From Hwanghaeella grinnelliae (GTDB lineage Bacteria > Pseudomonadota > Alphaproteobacteria > UBA8366 > Aestuariispiraceae), in assembly GCF_004005845.1 (NCBI RefSeq), contig NZ_SADE01000003.1, positions 248,001-312,000 on the forward strand: a stretch of DNA of 64,000 nt, given 5' to 3'. The translations under genes were made by a program, and so were the position numbers. The notes under the pieces were generated by a model. That model had not been told where the DNA came from. It did not search any database and saw only the letters and a program-made list of their open reading frames with translations. Positions 30,748 to 41,085 of this stretch are shown here, in pieces (the first letter of the stretch is position 1; each line of letters begins with the position of its first letter).

Positions 30748-31680
30748 TCAAAATTTGACGGTGTCGCCGCCCTTCAGGCTTAGGATTTCACGCGCCTCGT
30801 CCGGTTCCGCGACTTCCAGCGAAAGGCTCTCGATAATGCTGCGGACCTTTTTCACCTGTTCCGCGTTCGAGACGGCCAGTTTCCCGCGGCTGATCAGAAG
30901 ACTGTCTTCAAGTCCGACGCGCACATTGCCGCCCATGCCCGCGGCGACCGCCGCCAAGGGCATCTGCATGCGGCCGGCACCCAGGATCGACCAACGGTAT
31001 TGATCGCCAAACAGCTTGTCCGCCGTCTTTTTCATGAAGACCAGATTTTCCGTATCGGCCCCGATACCGCCCAGGATACCCATGACGAACTGGATGAACA
31101 CCGGCGCCTTTACCAGGCCACGGTCGAAGAAGTGGCGCAGTGTATAGAGATGACCGACATCGTAGCATTCGAATTCGAAACGCGTTCCCTTGTCGCCCAT
31201 CCGGGTCAGGATGCTCTCAATATCGCGGAACGTATTCTTGAAGATGAAATCCTTGGTGTTTTCCAAGTATTCCGGTTCCCAATCGTACTTCCATTCGTCG
31301 TATTTCTCGAGCATCGGGAAGATCCCGAAATTCATCGACCCCATATTGAGGGAGCAGACCTCAGGCTCGGCAACGAGGGAGGGCGCGAGCCGCTCTTCCA
31401 CCGACATGCCCAGCCCGCCGCCGGTCGTGATGTTCACCACGGCGTTGGTCGACTGTTTGATGCGCGGCAGGAACTTCATATAGACGTCCGGGTCCTGGGT
31501 CGGACGGCCGTCTTCCGGCATGCGGGCATGCAGATGCAGAATCGACGCGCCGGCTTCCGCCGCTTCGATTGCCTGCGTCGCGATTTCGTCCGGTGTGATC
31601 GGCAGATGTTCCGACATCGTCGGCGTGTGGATGGACCCTGTGACGGCACAGGTGATGATCACTTTGTTACGGCTGGCCAT
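30748..31680 (-). CDS. BKACE family (DUF849) beta-keto acid cleavage enzyme
   Basis: 310 residues. The DUF849/BKACE pattern is present: ITCAVTGSIHTPTMSEHLPITPDEI, the zinc-ligand block ASILHLHARMPEDGRPTQDP and GGNVRVGLEDSL near the C-terminus. BKACE enzymes condense a beta-keto acid with acetyl-CoA, giving acetoacetate and a new acyl-CoA; the first one found acts on 3-keto-5-aminohexanoate in lysine fermentation. AGGGGGAAA precedes the ATG. Between an amine oxidase and a TRAP importer, it probably acts on a keto acid from an imported compound; dehydrocarnitine is a known BKACE substrate and one option. Confidence 0.9.
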   Translation of the reverse strand: MASRNKVIITCAVTGSIHTPTMSEHLPITPDEIATQAIEAAEAGASILHLHARMPEDGRPTQDPDVYMKFLPRIKQSTNAVVNITTGGGLGMSVEERLAPSLVAEPEVCSLNMGSMNFGIFPMLEKYDEWKYDWEPEYLENTKDFIFKNTFRDIESILTRMGDKGTRFEFECYDVGHLYTLRHFFDRGLVKAPVFIQFVMGILGGIGADTENLVFMKKTADKLFGDQYRWSILGAGRMQMPLAAVAAGMGGNVRVGLEDSLLISRGKLAVSNAEQVKKVRSIIESLSLEVAEPDEAREILSLKGGDTVKF

Positions 31681-31786: not shown

Positions 31787-33091
31787 CTAGTTCACGTATT
31801 TCGGCATTATCAGGCGGGGAATGGCCATAACGACATCGGGAAAAACAATGATGACTCCAAGAACCAGAAGCATGGGGAATAGAATGACGCACACATCCCT
31901 CAACGCATCGATGAGACGGATCTTGCCGATCGCGGCTGAGATCAACAGGCAAATGCCATAGGGCGGCGTCACCAAGCCGAAGGCAAGGCTGATCACCCCG
32001 ATTATGGCGAAATGAATCGGGTGCATGCCGACATGCTGTGTCACCGGATAGAGCACAGTGCCGAGAATGATGATCGCCGGAATCGCGTCGATGAACATGC
32101 CGATCAGCAGGAAGGCAAGGGCGCACATTACCCCTGTCCCGATGATGCCCAGGCCCATCATCTCAATCTGCGCGACAAGGGCAGCCGGGATTTTGAAATA
32201 GGCGAGGCACCACCCGAAGGCCGAGGCCGTTCCGATGCAGAAGAGCGAAATCGCCGCGAAGCGTGCACTGTCGTAAAGGATTTTCGGCAACCGCTTCAGT
32301 TCGACGGAACGATAGACCATGACCCCCAAGATCAGCGAGTAGATGACGGCGACGACGGATGCTTCCGTCGGCGTGAAGAAGCCGCCAACGATACCGCCGA
32401 CGATGATCAACGGGGTCATCAGCGCCAATGAAGCGCTGGCCGTCGCCACCATCAATTCCTTGAAAGTGGAGCGATCGTAAACCGGATATCCGCGGCGTTT
32501 GGCATAGACATAGACGGTCAGCATCTGCGACCCGGCGATCAAGACGCCCGGCACGACACCGGCCAGGAACAGGCCGCCGATCGAAACCGACATCAACCCA
32601 CCCCAGACGACCATAAGAATAGACGGCGGAATGATAACGCCCATGACGCTGGAACAGGCCGTGATCGCGACCGCGAACGAAGTGTCATACCCCTGCTTTT
32701 TCATTTGCGGGATCAAAAGGGAACCGATACCGGCCGCATCCGCCGTCGAACTGCCGGAAATGCCGGCGAACAACATGCTGACGACAACGTTCACATGCCC
32801 CAACCCGCCCGGCAAATGGCCGACAAGGGCGCGGGCGAGGCGGATCAAACGGTCGGTGATGCCCGCGGAATTCATCAGATTGGCCGCCAGCAAAAAGAAC
32901 GGCACGGCCAGAAGAACGAAAGCATTGTAGCTCTTGAACATTTCCCGCAGCAGAAGAACCGGCGTCAACCGTTCCTCAATGAAGAAGACGGGCACGACCG
33001 CCAGGGCCAAAGCGAATGCCACCGGTACGCGAACCAAAACAAGAATACCGAACAAACCGAACAATACAGCGGCGACTTCACCCGGCCCCAT
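31787..33091 (-). CDS. dctM: TRAP transporter large permease (DctM)
   Basis: 434 residues, very hydrophobic, ~12 membrane helices. DctM blocks are visible, such as VPFFLLAANLMNSAGITDRLIRLA, GHLPGGLGHVNVVVSMLFAGISGSSTADAAGIGS and FGLVTPPYGICLLI. It carries the ion-coupled transport pathway of a TRAP importer. The start overlaps the DctQ gene by 14 bp and is preceded by AGGGGAAG. Confidence 0.95.
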   Translation of the reverse strand: MGPGEVAAVLFGLFGILVLVRVPVAFALALAVVPVFFIEERLTPVLLLREMFKSYNAFVLLAVPFFLLAANLMNSAGITDRLIRLARALVGHLPGGLGHVNVVVSMLFAGISGSSTADAAGIGSLLIPQMKKQGYDTSFAVAITACSSVMGVIIPPSILMVVWGGLMSVSIGGLFLAGVVPGVLIAGSQMLTVYVYAKRRGYPVYDRSTFKELMVATASASLALMTPLIIVGGIVGGFFTPTEASVVAVIYSLILGVMVYRSVELKRLPKILYDSARFAAISLFCIGTASAFGWCLAYFKIPAALVAQIEMMGLGIIGTGVMCALAFLLIGMFIDAIPAIIILGTVLYPVTQHVGMHPIHFAIIGVISLAFGLVTPPYGICLLISAAIGKIRLIDALRDVCVILFPMLLVLGVIIVFPDVVMAIPRLIMPKYVN

Positions 33092-33602
33092 GATCTTCCC
33101 CTGCGATGTACTGAATAGGGCTCTGTTTGCCGGTCCGGAATTCGACGGTGGCGTCGTAGACCTTCTCTATCAGGAAGATCGTCCAGGTAAAGCCGGCCAC
33201 GGGCCAGGCAATGTAGATCGTCAACATCGGCAAGCCTGAAATCTCGGACAACTGGCGGGACCCTAAGATCGCGAAGTCACGCCCGTAATAGATAAACGTC
33301 ATCGCCACGACGAACATGGCGACGTAGCAGAGTATCTTGAACAGGAACTCAACCGCCGGATTGCGACTGTGTGGAAGGACATCAACATCGAAATGCGTTC
33401 CATCCCGCACGGCAATCATGGCGCCAATCAGGATGATCCAGACGAAACAGAATCGTGCGATCTCCTCGGTCCAGATGAACCGTGGAATCAGCCCCGTATA
33501 CCGGCTGAGAATCTGCATGCCGACCGGAACGATCAACACGCCCATCAGTACGGTCAGAATGACTTTAAGCAGCCTATAATATGCGTTTAAAACGCTGCGC
33601 AT
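33078..33602 (-). CDS. dctQ: TRAP transporter small permease (DctQ)
   Basis: 174 residues with four membrane helices. The DctQ core RFIWTEEIARFCFVWIILIGAMIAVRDGTHFDVDV is clear. It stabilises DctM and receives the binding protein. It overlaps dctM by 14 bp and is separated from the upstream dctP gene by 76 bp that hold a perfect hairpin. Confidence 0.95.
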   Translation of the reverse strand: MRSVLNAYYRLLKVILTVLMGVLIVPVGMQILSRYTGLIPRFIWTEEIARFCFVWIILIGAMIAVRDGTHFDVDVLPHSRNPAVEFLFKILCYVAMFVVAMTFIYYGRDFAILGSRQLSEISGLPMLTIYIAWPVAGFTWTIFLIEKVYDATVEFRTGKQSPIQYIAGEDHGAG

Positions 33603-33630
33603 GAACTCGGTCCAAACGATTGGGTAAAAG

Positions 33631-33666
33631 AAGTCCGGCAGGATGCTTCAACATCCTGCCGGACTT
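33631..33666 (-). terminator. Perfect 15-bp hairpin between dctP and dctQM
   Basis: AAGTCCGGCAGGATG at 33631-33645 is the exact complement of CATCCTGCCGGACTT at 33652-33666, with a 6-nt loop. On the transcribed minus strand it begins 12 bp after the dctP stop and is followed by CTTTTACCC. It could act as an attenuator or as a 3' stability element that leaves dctP mRNA in excess over the permeases. Confidence 0.7.
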
Positions 33667-33678
33667 GCGGGACGTTGA

Positions 33679-34662
33679 CTATTTGACCGCTTCGATGGCC
33701 TTCAGGACATCGGTTGCGCCAAGTTCCGCCGCGTAGGCTTCCTTGACCGGTCCAGCCAATTCCAGAAGCTTTTCGCGTTCAGTGAAGGCATGGGTGGTCA
33801 ACCAGCCCTTTTCCTCCATGGCCTTGAGTTTGGCGGAATCCTGACCGGATTCGATATCCCGGCCGAGTTTCCCGCCCATCTTGCCGGCTTTCAGGACACA
33901 TTCCTGTTCCGCGGGCGTCAGACGCTCGAAGGTCGCGTTCGAGAAGGCGATCGGGCGAACGGTGATCGCATGCGCGGTCAACGCGATATGCGGCCCGACT
34001 TCGTAGAACTTCATCTGCTCAATACCGGCGGCTTCGTTTTCCGCGGCATCGATAACGCCGGTCTGGATGGCGTTATAGACCTCGGAATAGGCAATAACGG
34101 ACGGTTGCGCCTGGATCGCCTCGAAAATCCGGGTTTGGATCGGGGCCCCCATGACACGCATGGGCAATCCTTCCAACTCCGACATGTTGGTGACCGGGCG
34201 GTTCACGATGAGCTGCCGCGTTCCGCCACCGGCATAGCCGATCAGCCGCACGTTCGCGGTTTTCAACACATCCGCGGCGAGCGGCGCCAGCGCATCGACT
34301 TCCATGACCTTGTTCCAATGATCCAGGTCACGGAACAGGAACGGCATGTCCATCAACGGCGCCTTCTGGGAAAAGGTCGACATATGCGACGGGCTGACGA
34401 TCGCATAATCGACCGCGATGCCCTGGCTCATGTTTTCGAAATAGTCCTTTTCCAGGCCAAGCTCGGAATTCAGGTGCAGATCGAACTTGAGAGATCCGCC
34501 CGAACAGGAAGCGGCTTCTTCCTCGAACTTACGCAATGCCTTGGTAAATGCATGGGTTTCGTCGAACTGCACAGCGCCGACGAGGGTGGTTTCCGCATTG
34601 GCCGGTAGGGCCGCGAACACAGTAAGGGCACACCCCAAACCCAGGGTTTTCAGTACGTTCAT
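33679..34662 (-). CDS. dctP: TRAP transporter substrate-binding protein (DctP)
   Basis: 327 residues with a Sec signal peptide ending PANA. DctP features include DYAIVSPSHMSTF, MDMPFLFRDLDHWNKV, the Arg-containing substrate-binding block LEGLPMRVMGAP and VYNAIQTGVIDAAENE. The conserved Arg indicates a carboxylate ligand. It is first in the TRAP operon, with GGGAGG before the ATG. The divergent region upstream has no obvious regulator. Confidence 0.93.
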   Translation of the reverse strand: MNVLKTLGLGCALTVFAALPANAETTLVGAVQFDETHAFTKALRKFEEEAASCSGGSLKFDLHLNSELGLEKDYFENMSQGIAVDYAIVSPSHMSTFSQKAPLMDMPFLFRDLDHWNKVMEVDALAPLAADVLKTANVRLIGYAGGGTRQLIVNRPVTNMSELEGLPMRVMGAPIQTRIFEAIQAQPSVIAYSEVYNAIQTGVIDAAENEAAGIEQMKFYEVGPHIALTAHAITVRPIAFSNATFERLTPAEQECVLKAGKMGGKLGRDIESGQDSAKLKAMEEKGWLTTHAFTEREKLLELAGPVKEAYAAELGATDVLKAIEAVK

Positions 34663-38372: not shown

Positions 38373-39608
38373 CTAGCTGTTCTTCGCAAGATCAATGATC
38401 GCTGCGGTCAAGGGCACCGCAGGATCTGTCAGTGCCTCGACGATCGAGAAGTGGTGGTGCCCCTCCATCACCGCTTCCGAGACGGGGCAACCATGGGCGC
38501 GCATATGGTCGGCGAATAGCGCGCTTTGCCGGTGAAATTCCGGGCTTTCCAAGCTGCCCACGGACAATACGACCGGGATCGCGGTAACCGGCTTCATGTT
38601 GATGGGACTCAAACCGGCGATATCGTCCGCCGTGAACCGGAAGACAGGCTGCATTCCGGTCTTCGACAGGGGTTCCAAGTCGAACAGGCCTGAAATCGGC
38701 ACCGCCCCTTTCAGTAGATCGGCCGGCAGGTCGTCCCGGAAATCCGCCCAATCCGTGCAGGCCAGCGCGCCGGAAAGGTGACCGCCCGCGCTGTGGCCGG
38801 AAACCGTCAACCGGTCACGGTCATAGCCGTAATCCGCAGCCACGTCATAGGCACGCGCGACCGCGGCACGACATTGACGCAGGATTTCCGAAAGATCGAC
38901 ATCGGGCATCAGATCGTAGTTCACCATCGCGACAGCGATCCCGGCCTTCAACATCGCGTCCGCCATATGGGCGTGATTGCGTTTGTCGAGCGCCTGCCAA
39001 TAACCGCCGTGAATGAACAGATGCAGCGGCGGGTTTTCCACCCCGTCCGGGAGGAACAGGTCGAAACTCTGCCCTGGAGTTTCCCCGAACCAAACCTCCG
39101 CCACGCGGTTTTTCTGATAGGCCGGGCCCGAGAGTCGCCACAGCTCAAAATATTTATCGTGATCGGGCGCCTGCGCCCGCGGGCTGTATTGGAAATTGAT
39201 CTCGGCCTGCGTGAAATCCCCATAAACTTTCGCATCCGGGTCGCCAGCCGGCGGCACCACGGCGGAAAGGGCGATTTTCGGACCTGTCAGATCCCTGTCT
39301 TCAACCACGGTGATTGCAGGAAAATTCCCCGCCAGCGTTTCACGGAACGCCAGGTCATAATCTATCAGCCGATCCTGCAGGACGCCGATATCCGGCAGCC
39401 ACAGCACCATCCGGCTTAAATGCGGCGGCATGGCGCCTTGCGCCATCACCGCCCCCGCGGCCCGCGTCAGGGCCAAGCGATACGCCGTTACCGGATCGTC
39501 CGGCATGTCAGCGCCGGCATCGAAAACATCCGTCACGACCAACCGGCCGCCCGCGGGAGTATCCTGTTCTTTCAGGTTTGGCGCGTCCGTCGCCTGAGTA
39601 AAATGCAT
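38373..39608 (-). CDS. RidA-like domain fused to a kynurenine formamidase-like esterase
   Basis: 411 residues from the ATG at 39608, preceded by AGGGGGAAGGA. Residues ~1-125 resemble a RidA/YjgF unit: RAAGAVMAQGAMPPHLSRMVLWLPDIG, then a PAITVVEDRDL tail. The C-terminal ~280 residues are an alpha/beta hydrolase with LFIHGGYWQ, the formamidase/esterase oxyanion motif, nucleophile elbow SGHSAGGHLSG and a catalytic His in EGHHHFSI. RidA proteins deaminate reactive enamines and imines. The fusion could couple ester or formamide hydrolysis to handling of an unstable amine product (inference). It is divergent from the carbamoylase gene. Confidence 0.75.
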   Translation of the reverse strand: MHFTQATDAPNLKEQDTPAGGRLVVTDVFDAGADMPDDPVTAYRLALTRAAGAVMAQGAMPPHLSRMVLWLPDIGVLQDRLIDYDLAFRETLAGNFPAITVVEDRDLTGPKIALSAVVPPAGDPDAKVYGDFTQAEINFQYSPRAQAPDHDKYFELWRLSGPAYQKNRVAEVWFGETPGQSFDLFLPDGVENPPLHLFIHGGYWQALDKRNHAHMADAMLKAGIAVAMVNYDLMPDVDLSEILRQCRAAVARAYDVAADYGYDRDRLTVSGHSAGGHLSGALACTDWADFRDDLPADLLKGAVPISGLFDLEPLSKTGMQPVFRFTADDIAGLSPINMKPVTAIPVVLSVGSLESPEFHRQSALFADHMRAHGCPVSEAVMEGHHHFSIVEALTDPAVPLTAAIIDLAKNS

Positions 39609-39825
39609 TCCTTCCCCCTTGCACCATGCGGAAGGCCAACATGTGCCCACCGAAAACCTCTGTCACCCGTCTTTGCGGGTGGACCGAAACCGGTATAGTG
39701 ACGCCATCAACGGACGTCAGAGTCCAGCAATTGTTCCGGTAGGGGTATCCGGTTCCGCCGCCGCCTGCATGCAAGACCCGCATGGAATACAAAGGGGCGT
39801 GCGACCGGCAATAGGGGATGACAAA

Positions 39826-41085
39826 ATGAGTGCACCGACAGTCAACGGCGATCGTCTTTGGCAAAGCCTTATGGATATGGCGCAACACGGCGCGACGCCG
39901 AAGGGCGGCGTCTGCCGCCTGGCCTTGACGGATATCGACAAGGCGGGCCGTGACCTGTTCGTCGAATGGTGCCGTCAGGCCGGCATGACGACCCGGGTCG
40001 ACAAGGTCGGCAACATCTTCGCCCGCCGTCCCGGACGCGATCCGAAGGCCGATCCTGTGGTCACCGGCAGCCATCTGGACAGCCAGCCGACGGGCGGACG
40101 GTTCGACGGCGTCTATGGCGTGCTGGCGGGACTGGAAGTGGTCCGCAGTCTGAACGATCAAGCGATCGAAACCGATGCCCCGATCGAGGTCGCGGTTTGG
40201 ACCAATGAGGAAGGCAGCCGGTTTTCCCCCGCCATGATGGGGTCGGGTGTCTATGGCGGTGCTTTCACGCTTGAGGAAATCCTGGACAAGCAAGACATCG
40301 ACGGCAAACGATTCGGCGATGAGCTTGAGCGGATCGGCTATGCCGGCGAAGACGACCCGACGGACCATCCGATGAGAGCCTATTTCGAGGCGCATATTGA
40401 ACAGGGACCGATTCTGGAGGCTGCCGGACTGCCGGTCGGGGTGGTCACCGGCGCCCAGGGCCAGCGCTGGCATGAAATAACCGTGACCGGGATGGAAGCG
40501 CATGCCGGGCCGACCCCGATGGCGATCCGCAAGGACGCGCTTGTGGCCGCGGCAAAGATCATCCAGTGCGTCAACGAAATCGGCCATGAACATCAGCCGG
40601 GCGCCTGCGCCACCGTCGGCTTCATCCAGTCCAAACCGAATTCCAGGAATGTCATTCCGGGTGAGGTTTTCCTCACCACCGACTTGCGCCATCCCGACGA
40701 CGCCCAATTGACCAAGATGGACGCGGCGCTGAAGGAATGCTGCGCGAACGTTGCCGAGGAATCCGGCGTCACGGTGGACGTTGTCGATTTTTGGTATTTC
40801 GCGCCCACCCCCTTCGACGAAAAGCTGGTAACGCTGGTGCGCCACGGGGCGGATCTTCACGGTTATCAAACCCAACCGATCGTTTCCGGTGCCGGGCATG
40901 ACGCGGTCTATGTGGCACGGCGCGCGCCGACGGCTATGATCTTCACGCCATGCGAGGACGGTATCAGTCATAACGAGGTGGAGAACGCAAAGCCGGAGGA
41001 CCTGGAAGCCGGCTGCAACGTCCTGTATCACGCGATGCTGGAAGCGGCCGGATGGCATCGCGGCGGGCATAACGAAGCGGAATAG
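39826..41085 (+). CDS. M20-family Zn-dependent hydrolase (N-carbamoyl amino acid amidohydrolase type)
   Basis: 419 residues from the ATG at 39826, preceded by AGGGGATG; the frame is open 207 bp further upstream without similarity. Metal ligands are His and Asp in GSHLDSQPTGGRFDG, the Glu pair in VWTNEEGSRF, His in FEAHIEQGP and His in GISHNEVENA. GQRWHEITVTGMEAHAGPTPM is the dimerisation and substrate region typical of L-carbamoylases, beta-ureidopropionases and allantoate amidohydrolases. It releases CO2 and ammonia from a carbamoyl or ureido compound. The next gene is 27 bp away. Confidence 0.9.
   Translation: MSAPTVNGDRLWQSLMDMAQHGATPKGGVCRLALTDIDKAGRDLFVEWCRQAGMTTRVDKVGNIFARRPGRDPKADPVVTGSHLDSQPTGGRFDGVYGVLAGLEVVRSLNDQAIETDAPIEVAVWTNEEGSRFSPAMMGSGVYGGAFTLEEILDKQDIDGKRFGDELERIGYAGEDDPTDHPMRAYFEAHIEQGPILEAAGLPVGVVTGAQGQRWHEITVTGMEAHAGPTPMAIRKDALVAAAKIIQCVNEIGHEHQPGACATVGFIQSKPNSRNVIPGEVFLTTDLRHPDDAQLTKMDAALKECCANVAEESGVTVDVVDFWYFAPTPFDEKLVTLVRHGADLHGYQTQPIVSGAGHDAVYVARRAPTAMIFTPCEDGISHNEVENAKPEDLEAGCNVLYHAMLEAAGWHRGGHNEAE

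Follow-up and report, generated by a model that had tools for sequence, protein, structure and literature searches.

The window that we analysed, a stretch of 64,000 nucleotides from the alphaproteobacterium Hwanghaeella grinnelliae, encodes a 411-residue protein in which a degenerate domain of the Rid superfamily (RidA/YjgF/YER057c/UK114; PF01042) is predicted to be joined to an α/β hydrolase of the arylformamidase/BD-FAE type (Table 1). We put the odds at roughly even that this protein is an amide or ester hydrolase freeing an aminobenzoate or a precursor of one, in which a non-catalytic Rid domain acts as a scaffold or ligand-binding module. The open frame begins with an ATG at 39608 and ends with a stop codon at 38375-38373; an in-frame GTG lies upstream at 39650, and the relative from the same genus begins at the ATG. 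The initial annotation had recognised a Rid-like and a formamidase-like part in one protein, and the single frame, with both predicted folds and with both HGGYWQ and GHSAGGH present, bears this out. The window's genome holds no second copy of the fusion, its other matches at E<=1e-3 being two weak matches to the hydrolase.

Table 1. Features of the fusion gene and its divergent neighbour (positions in the window)
Feature	Position	Strand	Basis
Fusion gene, 411 aa, Rid-like domain plus arylformamidase/BD-FAE-type α/β hydrolase	38373..39608	-	single ORF
Predicted degenerate Rid (RidA/YjgF) domain, residues 1-119	39252..39608	-	AlphaFold2 model, structure matches
Predicted α/β hydrolase domain, residues 128-411	38376..39227	-	PF20434, PF07859, structure matches
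I99, place of RidA catalytic Arg (Arg105, E. coli TdcF numbering)	39312..39314	-	58-domain Rid alignment
HGGYWQA (200-206), expected oxyanion-hole motif	38991..39011	-	invariant in alignments A1, A2
GHSAGGH (271-277), expected nucleophile S273	38778..38798	-	S273 invariant in 21-row alignment A4
H386, expected catalytic His of hydrolase	38451-38453	-	invariant in 21-row alignment A4
217-bp region separating divergent fusion and M20 genes	39609..39825		coordinates of both genes
Divergent M20 hydantoinase/carbamoylase-family amidohydrolase	39826..41085	+	start taken as ATG 39826

Members of the Rid superfamily are homotrimers whose active sites lie between subunits. Public profiles overlook the kinship of residues 1-119 with this superfamily: Pfam and NCBIfam, at an E-value of 0.1, give no match to residues 1-125, PF01042 gives none to the window's N-terminal domain at E<=10, and among six fused N-terminal domains it matches one (E 0.13). 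The N-terminal part used as a query recovered ten stand-alone Rid ORFs in related genomes (E 1.9e-7 to 5.2e-4), a kinship borne out by a local comparison, and a profile of nine Rid proteins, eight of them abm-type and one canonical, recovered the window's ORF at 2e-6 and 5 of the 18 fusions at E<=1e-4. A profile of the six fused N-terminal domains yielded 19 weak rows against the PDB (best E 0.036), 13 of them Rid proteins, many being variants of goat RidA. The AlphaFold2 model of the whole protein, whose input of 21 rows included six with the N-terminal domain and no Rid protein, has a mean pLDDT of 93, and 74-93 per ten-residue block in the N-terminal part. Since the fold lists obtained with this model were filled by the hydrolase, the N-terminal domain was modelled (from the six fused rows, again with no Rid row; AlphaFold2, mean pLDDT 86) and searched alone. 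Of the 50 matches listed by VIA-align 2 (Z 9.5-11.0, rmsd 2.0-3.6 Å, 92-104 aligned residues), all but 1xrg (hypothetical) and 3k12 (uncharacterized) carry a title or an older family name that marks them as Rid proteins. Rid proteins also head the 50 rows listed by Foldseek (best E 1.5e-5); three ThiL kinases appear lower in that list. As the pairing of N-terminal domain and hydrolase is kept in 18 proteins, chance can be excluded, and we regard residues 1-119 as a real Rid domain, predicted from sequence and modelling, whose homology to abm-type Rids is detectable. An N-terminal part failing to fold as RidA, the outcome that the initial annotation had named as fatal to its proposal, did not materialise, given that the model made without Rid sequences matches Rid structures. 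PF01042 and the NCBIfam profiles can thus be expected to overlook other degenerate Rid domains of this type, which serves as a warning for genome surveys.

Despite sharing this fold, the fused domain differs from Rid proteins in lacking the active-site arginine, the glutamate and the G-Q loop, in failing PF01042 and in being joined to a hydrolase. In an alignment of 58 Rid domains, comprising fused, abm-type and canonical rows and the neighbour Rid of locus L293, the place of the catalytic arginine is taken in the 18 fused domains by I (11), V (3), F, T, D and E (one each), and in none by arginine; the unfused abm-type Rids have Met (15/15), the unfused neighbour Rid of L293 has Cys, and arginine is kept in 20 of the 24 canonical rows from related genomes. 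The conserved glutamate (Glu120 in TdcF) is kept in every unfused row, including 15/15 abm-type and 24/24 canonical ones, and in 0/18 fused domains, the column being less certain in two Halomonas rows. The G-Q of the loop is found in 0/18 fused, 13/15 abm-type and 19/24 canonical rows. Here the canonical set comprises 23 of the 30 loci tried together with a row from L068 identical to that of L097, i.e. 23 different proteins, and the abm-type set includes four members (L075, L076, L077 and L080) kept for their sequence type, in whose fetched stretches neither a hydroxylase nor a ligase member of an abm cluster occurs. The arginine (Arg105) marks the imine deaminases of the superfamily (RidA, Rid1-3). 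Mutation of the RidA arginine nearly abolishes imine hydrolysis (PMC4433059), and the Rid4-7 groups are described there as lacking the arginine while retaining the glutamate. With both residues gone, the fused domain goes beyond Rid4-7 in its losses, and from their loss in 18/18 fusions we infer that it is a non-catalytic, worn-down copy of the RidA fold and not an imine deaminase.

The C-terminal part exceeds the cut-offs of PF20434 (5.8e-18; 65.6 bits against 26.8) and PF07859 (1.2e-12; 48.5 bits against 25). Nine NCBIfam models of esterase/lipase type match it at E<=0.1, none reaching its own cut-off, and the KynB profile TIGR03035 is absent from the NCBIfam matches of the fusion protein at that threshold. 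In the predicted whole-protein model, the nearest solved structures to the hydrolase domain are 9n8r (Pseudomonas chlororaphis Lipase 1; Z 37.2) and 2pbl (TM1040_2492, a putative esterase/thioesterase; Z 34.8), which, in contrast to the two-domain fusion, are single-domain chains of 278 and 262 residues. The animal-type kynurenine formamidase of Drosophila (4e11/4e14/4e15) has the hydrolase fold in common with the fusion (Z 30.5-30.8, 4e15 at 30.8; 22% identity), but its aligned chains have no Rid domain, the aligned range of the fusion model beginning at residues 127-129. HGGYWQ and HS[AV]GGH are each kept in 18/18 fusions, and H200 G201 G202, S273 and H386 are invariant among the relatives aligned. 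The formamidase-like character first assigned to this part is upheld, and the domain appears to be an intact serine hydrolase with its predicted catalytic motifs in place.

The fusion is present in 12 of the 14 genomes of the window's family, being missing from G211 and G385, and in six loci beyond it: the plasmid of Chelatococcus sp. CO-6, Halomonas nitroreducens and H. organivorans, and three Hyphomicrobiales MAGs (assigned to Hyphomicrobiaceae, Beijerinckiaceae and Hyphomicrobiales). The architecture, whose conservation had been left as a point to check, is therefore kept well beyond one genome, and the six outside carriers rule out a restriction to the family. Among 385 sampled genomes of the class, listed matches reaching the N-terminal domain occur in four, all of the same family (E<=1e-80). 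One match beyond the family (G378) runs from residue 70 and crosses two stops, and the same place matches from position 109 in a second search. When plasmids were searched by tblastn, 4 of the 25 matches listed, out of 258 records, begin ahead of residue 100 (H1, H4, H5 and H12); H1 is the Chelatococcus plasmid, which proved to carry a fusion, annotated in its record as 'alpha/beta hydrolase' alone. The early-starting matches of L160, L165 and L227 were read as hydrolase alone, and that of L169 as two genes in different frames. In a quick tree of 89 rows (18 fused and 71 unfused; none holding an internal stop), made without bootstrap, a single clade (SH-aLRT 98) unites the hydrolase parts of the 18 fusions; four of the 80 loci (L164, L165, L203 and L226) were left out of this tree for frame breaks. 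The fusion, to judge from this tree, probably arose once. In the Rid tree the abm-type rows lie between the fused and the canonical rows; it has a midpoint root only, and its long branches make the placement of the fused clade unsure. That fused and abm-type Rids have gene clusters in common suggests descent of the former from the latter, a derivation with which the similarity search agrees and which the Rid tree cannot prove.

The commonest conserved neighbour of the fusion is the M20 gene (in the window, NF006769 662 bits against a cut-off of 452 and TIGR01879 438 against 204), which adjoins it in 9/12 family genomes of three genera. The two genes are divergent in the window and in the genome of the same genus (L064), and run in the same direction with a 4-base overlap in L070 and L074. 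No M20 gene stands beside the fusions of G387, G393 and G301 or at the four Hyphomicrobiales loci, and a dissimilar M20 (34-35% identity) is encoded a few kb from both Halomonas fusions. In five g2 genomes (G105, G390, G391, G392 and G379) an EamA transporter and an Ldh_2-family dehydrogenase are encoded upstream of the M20 gene, and G393 has both without M20. The EamA transporter of the window was considered as the counterpart of that in the g2 operon and discarded, as the two give no cross-match at E 1e-10. The window also carries a BKACE-type gene (30748-31680; 556 bits, NCBIfam cut-off 430), a gene of the same cluster coming after the fusion in G387 (L065), and a set of TRAP transporter genes (DctM, DctQ, DctP; 31787-34662).

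Some carriers place the fusion among genes of aminobenzoate breakdown: 3-hydroxyanthranilate dioxygenase (HAO) is encoded near 4 of the 18 fusions and anthranilate dioxygenase near 2. The fusion of G301 comes last in a set with HAO and muconic-semialdehyde dehydrogenase, both over their cut-offs, a separate Arg-bearing Rid, a branched-chain-type ABC transporter and an Amidohydro_2 protein that is ACMSD-like by eye and has no NCBIfam match. On the Chelatococcus plasmid and in L157 and L224, HAO is near and a branched-chain-type ABC transporter directly precedes the fusion; the HAO of L157 is under the cut-off, probably because the stretch ends within the gene. In the Halomonas locus L154 a dioxygenase fits anthranilate 1,2-dioxygenase, scoring 621 bits on that model (cut-off 671.9; 314 of 438 positions covered) and 315 bits on the one for benzoate dioxygenase. 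It is accompanied by catechol 1,2-dioxygenase and muconate cycloisomerase, each above its cut-off; next come a TRAP transporter and, behind it, the fusion. The gene order recurs in L175, as traced with phmmer for the two dioxygenases and with Pfam for the cycloisomerase-type gene. None of HAO, AntA, AbmA, TDO, KynU and KynB is found near the fusion in 11 of the 12 family loci, the window included, over scans of 9-20 kb per family locus and 64 kb for the window, nor in the stretch scanned of L182, from beyond the family. Of the genes sought, the fusion of G388 (L070) has beside it only an acyl-CoA synthetase of general type and a gene that weakly matches acyl-CoA dehydrogenase.

The unfused homologues offer further contexts, drawn from 80 loci picked by likeness to the query, so that they stand as examples and not as rates. 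In the betaproteobacterial MAG of L169 an abm-type Rid gene is followed, with a 4-base overlap, by a hydrolase gene, and the pair ends a cluster of 2-aminobenzoyl-CoA type that encodes proteins of the salicylyl-CoA-hydroxylase (AbmA) type and the benzoate-CoA-ligase family, both over cut-off. Three Halomonadaceae loci (L176, L191 and L208) have convergent Rid and hydrolase genes, and genes for ligase and acyl-CoA dehydrogenase lie no more than about 8 kb away. G211 and G385 are the family genomes that lack the fusion; in both, an unfused hydrolase gene adjoins the AbmA-type gene divergently and an abm-type Rid is encoded in the same cluster. Of the other unfused hydrolase homologues, that of L220 forms a tandem with KynU and TDO, and that of L172 adjoins TDO. 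An AbmA-type gene exceeds its cut-off in 14/14 family genomes, and in the window's genome the AbmA cluster includes a separate Rid. According to PMC3534580 and PMC4539516, AbmA yields an enamine CoA thioester, so the unfused abm-type Rids may be the deaminase of this compound. Abm-type genes accompany 11 of these 15 Rids in the stretches fetched; the abm-type Rid of the window's genome (L276, 13078-13488; contig C1) has Met for Arg and keeps the Glu.

The clusters of 3-hydroxyanthranilate, anthranilate/catechol and anthranilate/CoA-thioester type share only aminobenzoate, and the hydrolase, encoded in or beside all three, would hence most simply supply aminobenzoate. As the sole active site of the fusion it would cleave an amide or ester bond (formyl, another acyl, or an ester) to release either an aminobenzoate (anthranilate, 3-hydroxyanthranilate) or a compound that leads directly to one, for example kynurenine. 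The ancestor of the Rid domain would have been a Rid active in those aminobenzoate gene clusters; the domain itself would today either hold trimers together as a scaffold or bind the aromatic compound that the hydrolase uses or releases. For a Rid part without Arg and Glu, scaffolding or ligand binding appears most likely. In human hp14.5 the catalytic arginine binds benzoate within the Rid cleft (PMC4433059), making aromatic-acid binding chemically plausible, although the arginine needed is absent from the fusion. More narrowly, and only tentatively, the Rid part may be a pseudoenzyme, derived from the Rid of a 2-aminobenzoyl-CoA cluster, which would have retained the fold for binding and lost the chemistry, and which would give an aminobenzoate-releasing amidase its scaffold or its sensor of aromatic acids. 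Several points speak against aminobenzoate release: the genes sought are missing from the scanned stretches of 11 family loci and L182, the commonest neighbour, M20, is not an aminobenzoate gene, neither TDO nor kynureninase exceeds its cut-off in the fusion genomes G105, G388, G390 and G392, the abm association comes from the unfused homologues, and the fused clade is placed unsurely in the Rid tree. If M20 is taken as the guide, the fusion would belong with it in a ureide/N-carbamoyl or other amide pathway and the aminobenzoate contexts elsewhere would be later recruitments, as the adjacency in three genera, the operon-like overlap in L070 and L074 and the dissimilar M20 near the two Halomonas fusions might indicate; yet M20 is absent beside the fusions of three family genomes and the four Hyphomicrobiales ones. 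The M20 family, whose substrates include N-carbamoyl, ureido and other compounds, is moreover too wide for such a neighbour to name a pathway, and we consider this explanation doubtful.

Kynurenine formamidase activity, with the fusion replacing KynB to deformylate TDO-made N-formylkynurenine in tryptophan catabolism, is one case of aminobenzoate supply from an amide or ester. The genome of the window encodes TDO, kynureninase and the abm cluster and gives no KynB match at E<=1e-3, leaving N-formylkynurenine deformylation as a slot that the fusion, its only strong hydrolase of this family, could fill, and the unfused homologues of L220 and L172 keep company with the tryptophan genes. In that genome, however, the fusion gene is not linked to TDO and lies on a different contig from both TDO and KynU. 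It is also present in 5/5 family genomes without TDO and in 7/9 with it (5/12 fusion genomes thus lacking TDO), and G301 carries KynB as well as the fusion. As the fusion does not track TDO across the family, we regard this narrower role as rather unlikely. A place in the lower 2-aminobenzoyl-CoA pathway after AbmA, as a thioester or ring-opening hydrolase, would suit the unfused hydrolases of G211, G385 and L169 and the presence of AbmA-type genes throughout the family, but is improbable given that fusions occur in HAO and anthranilate-dioxygenase clusters, routes that bypass the 2-aminobenzoyl-CoA thioester. The initial annotation had suggested a bifunctional enzyme, in which the hydrolase yields a reactive enamine or imine that the Rid domain deaminates. 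The Rid fold is as it expected, and the unfused Rid and hydrolase genes repeatedly found side by side would fit consecutive steps; but the arginine that it wished to see checked is gone from every fusion together with its companion glutamate, and both G301, with its Arg-bearing Rid a few genes from the fusion, and the window's genome, with a Rid in its AbmA cluster, encode separate Rid proteins. Processing of a reactive amine by the fused Rid part thus seems very improbable.

Both domains are known, and it is their combination that is new among the open-licence papers searched. In uracil catabolism a Rid protein, RutC, and an α/β hydrolase, RutD, act in one pathway, but they are separate proteins, unlike the fusion, and RutD is of a different hydrolase family. 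Arthrobacter Rue61a reportedly has an N-acetylanthranilate amidase that is an α/β hydrolase releasing anthranilate from an amide, and the fusion, likened to it by description only, might work in the same way. Bacterial esterases of the EstDZ2 type, also likened by description, share the GHSAG motif and the kinship to formamidases, EstDZ2 itself being described as a protein of 272 residues (PMC5171882) against the 411 of the fusion. Fusions recorded for Rid domains include the tandem Rids of 3x-RidA (PMC4433059) and the YjgF-like domain of the chorismatase XanB2 (PMC6449761). A description of the Rid-hydrolase architecture was not found in the open-licence literature searched, which agrees with the remark in the initial annotation that it was not known as described, and no paper among the matches listed from that literature brings RidA together with 2-aminobenzoyl-CoA. 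PMC5053998, one of two listed papers that mention both RidA and kynurenine formamidase, is unrelated to the fusion. As fusions point to shared function, the fusion and the unfused Rid-hydrolase neighbours tie Arg-less Rids to aminobenzoate breakdown, and Rid proteins without the catalytic arginine, which are poorly understood, gain a candidate substrate class.

A few related arrangements were encountered along the way. A 402-aa open frame of G387 (C8:111676-112713) has three matches to PF01042, one of them under the cut-off, and resembles the known 3x-RidA arrangement. In L293 (8415-9661; G391) a gene for a distant hydrolase is followed on the same strand, with a 4-base overlap, by a Rid gene. 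Finally, a single open frame of L023 (1-2409; G279:C60) encodes a branched-chain permease, a LigB dioxygenase-like part and a hydrolase of the same kind as that of the fusion; the three genomes of one genus concerned (G279:C60, G357:C25 and G065:C136) show open frames that measure 1049, 1061 and 1076 aa.
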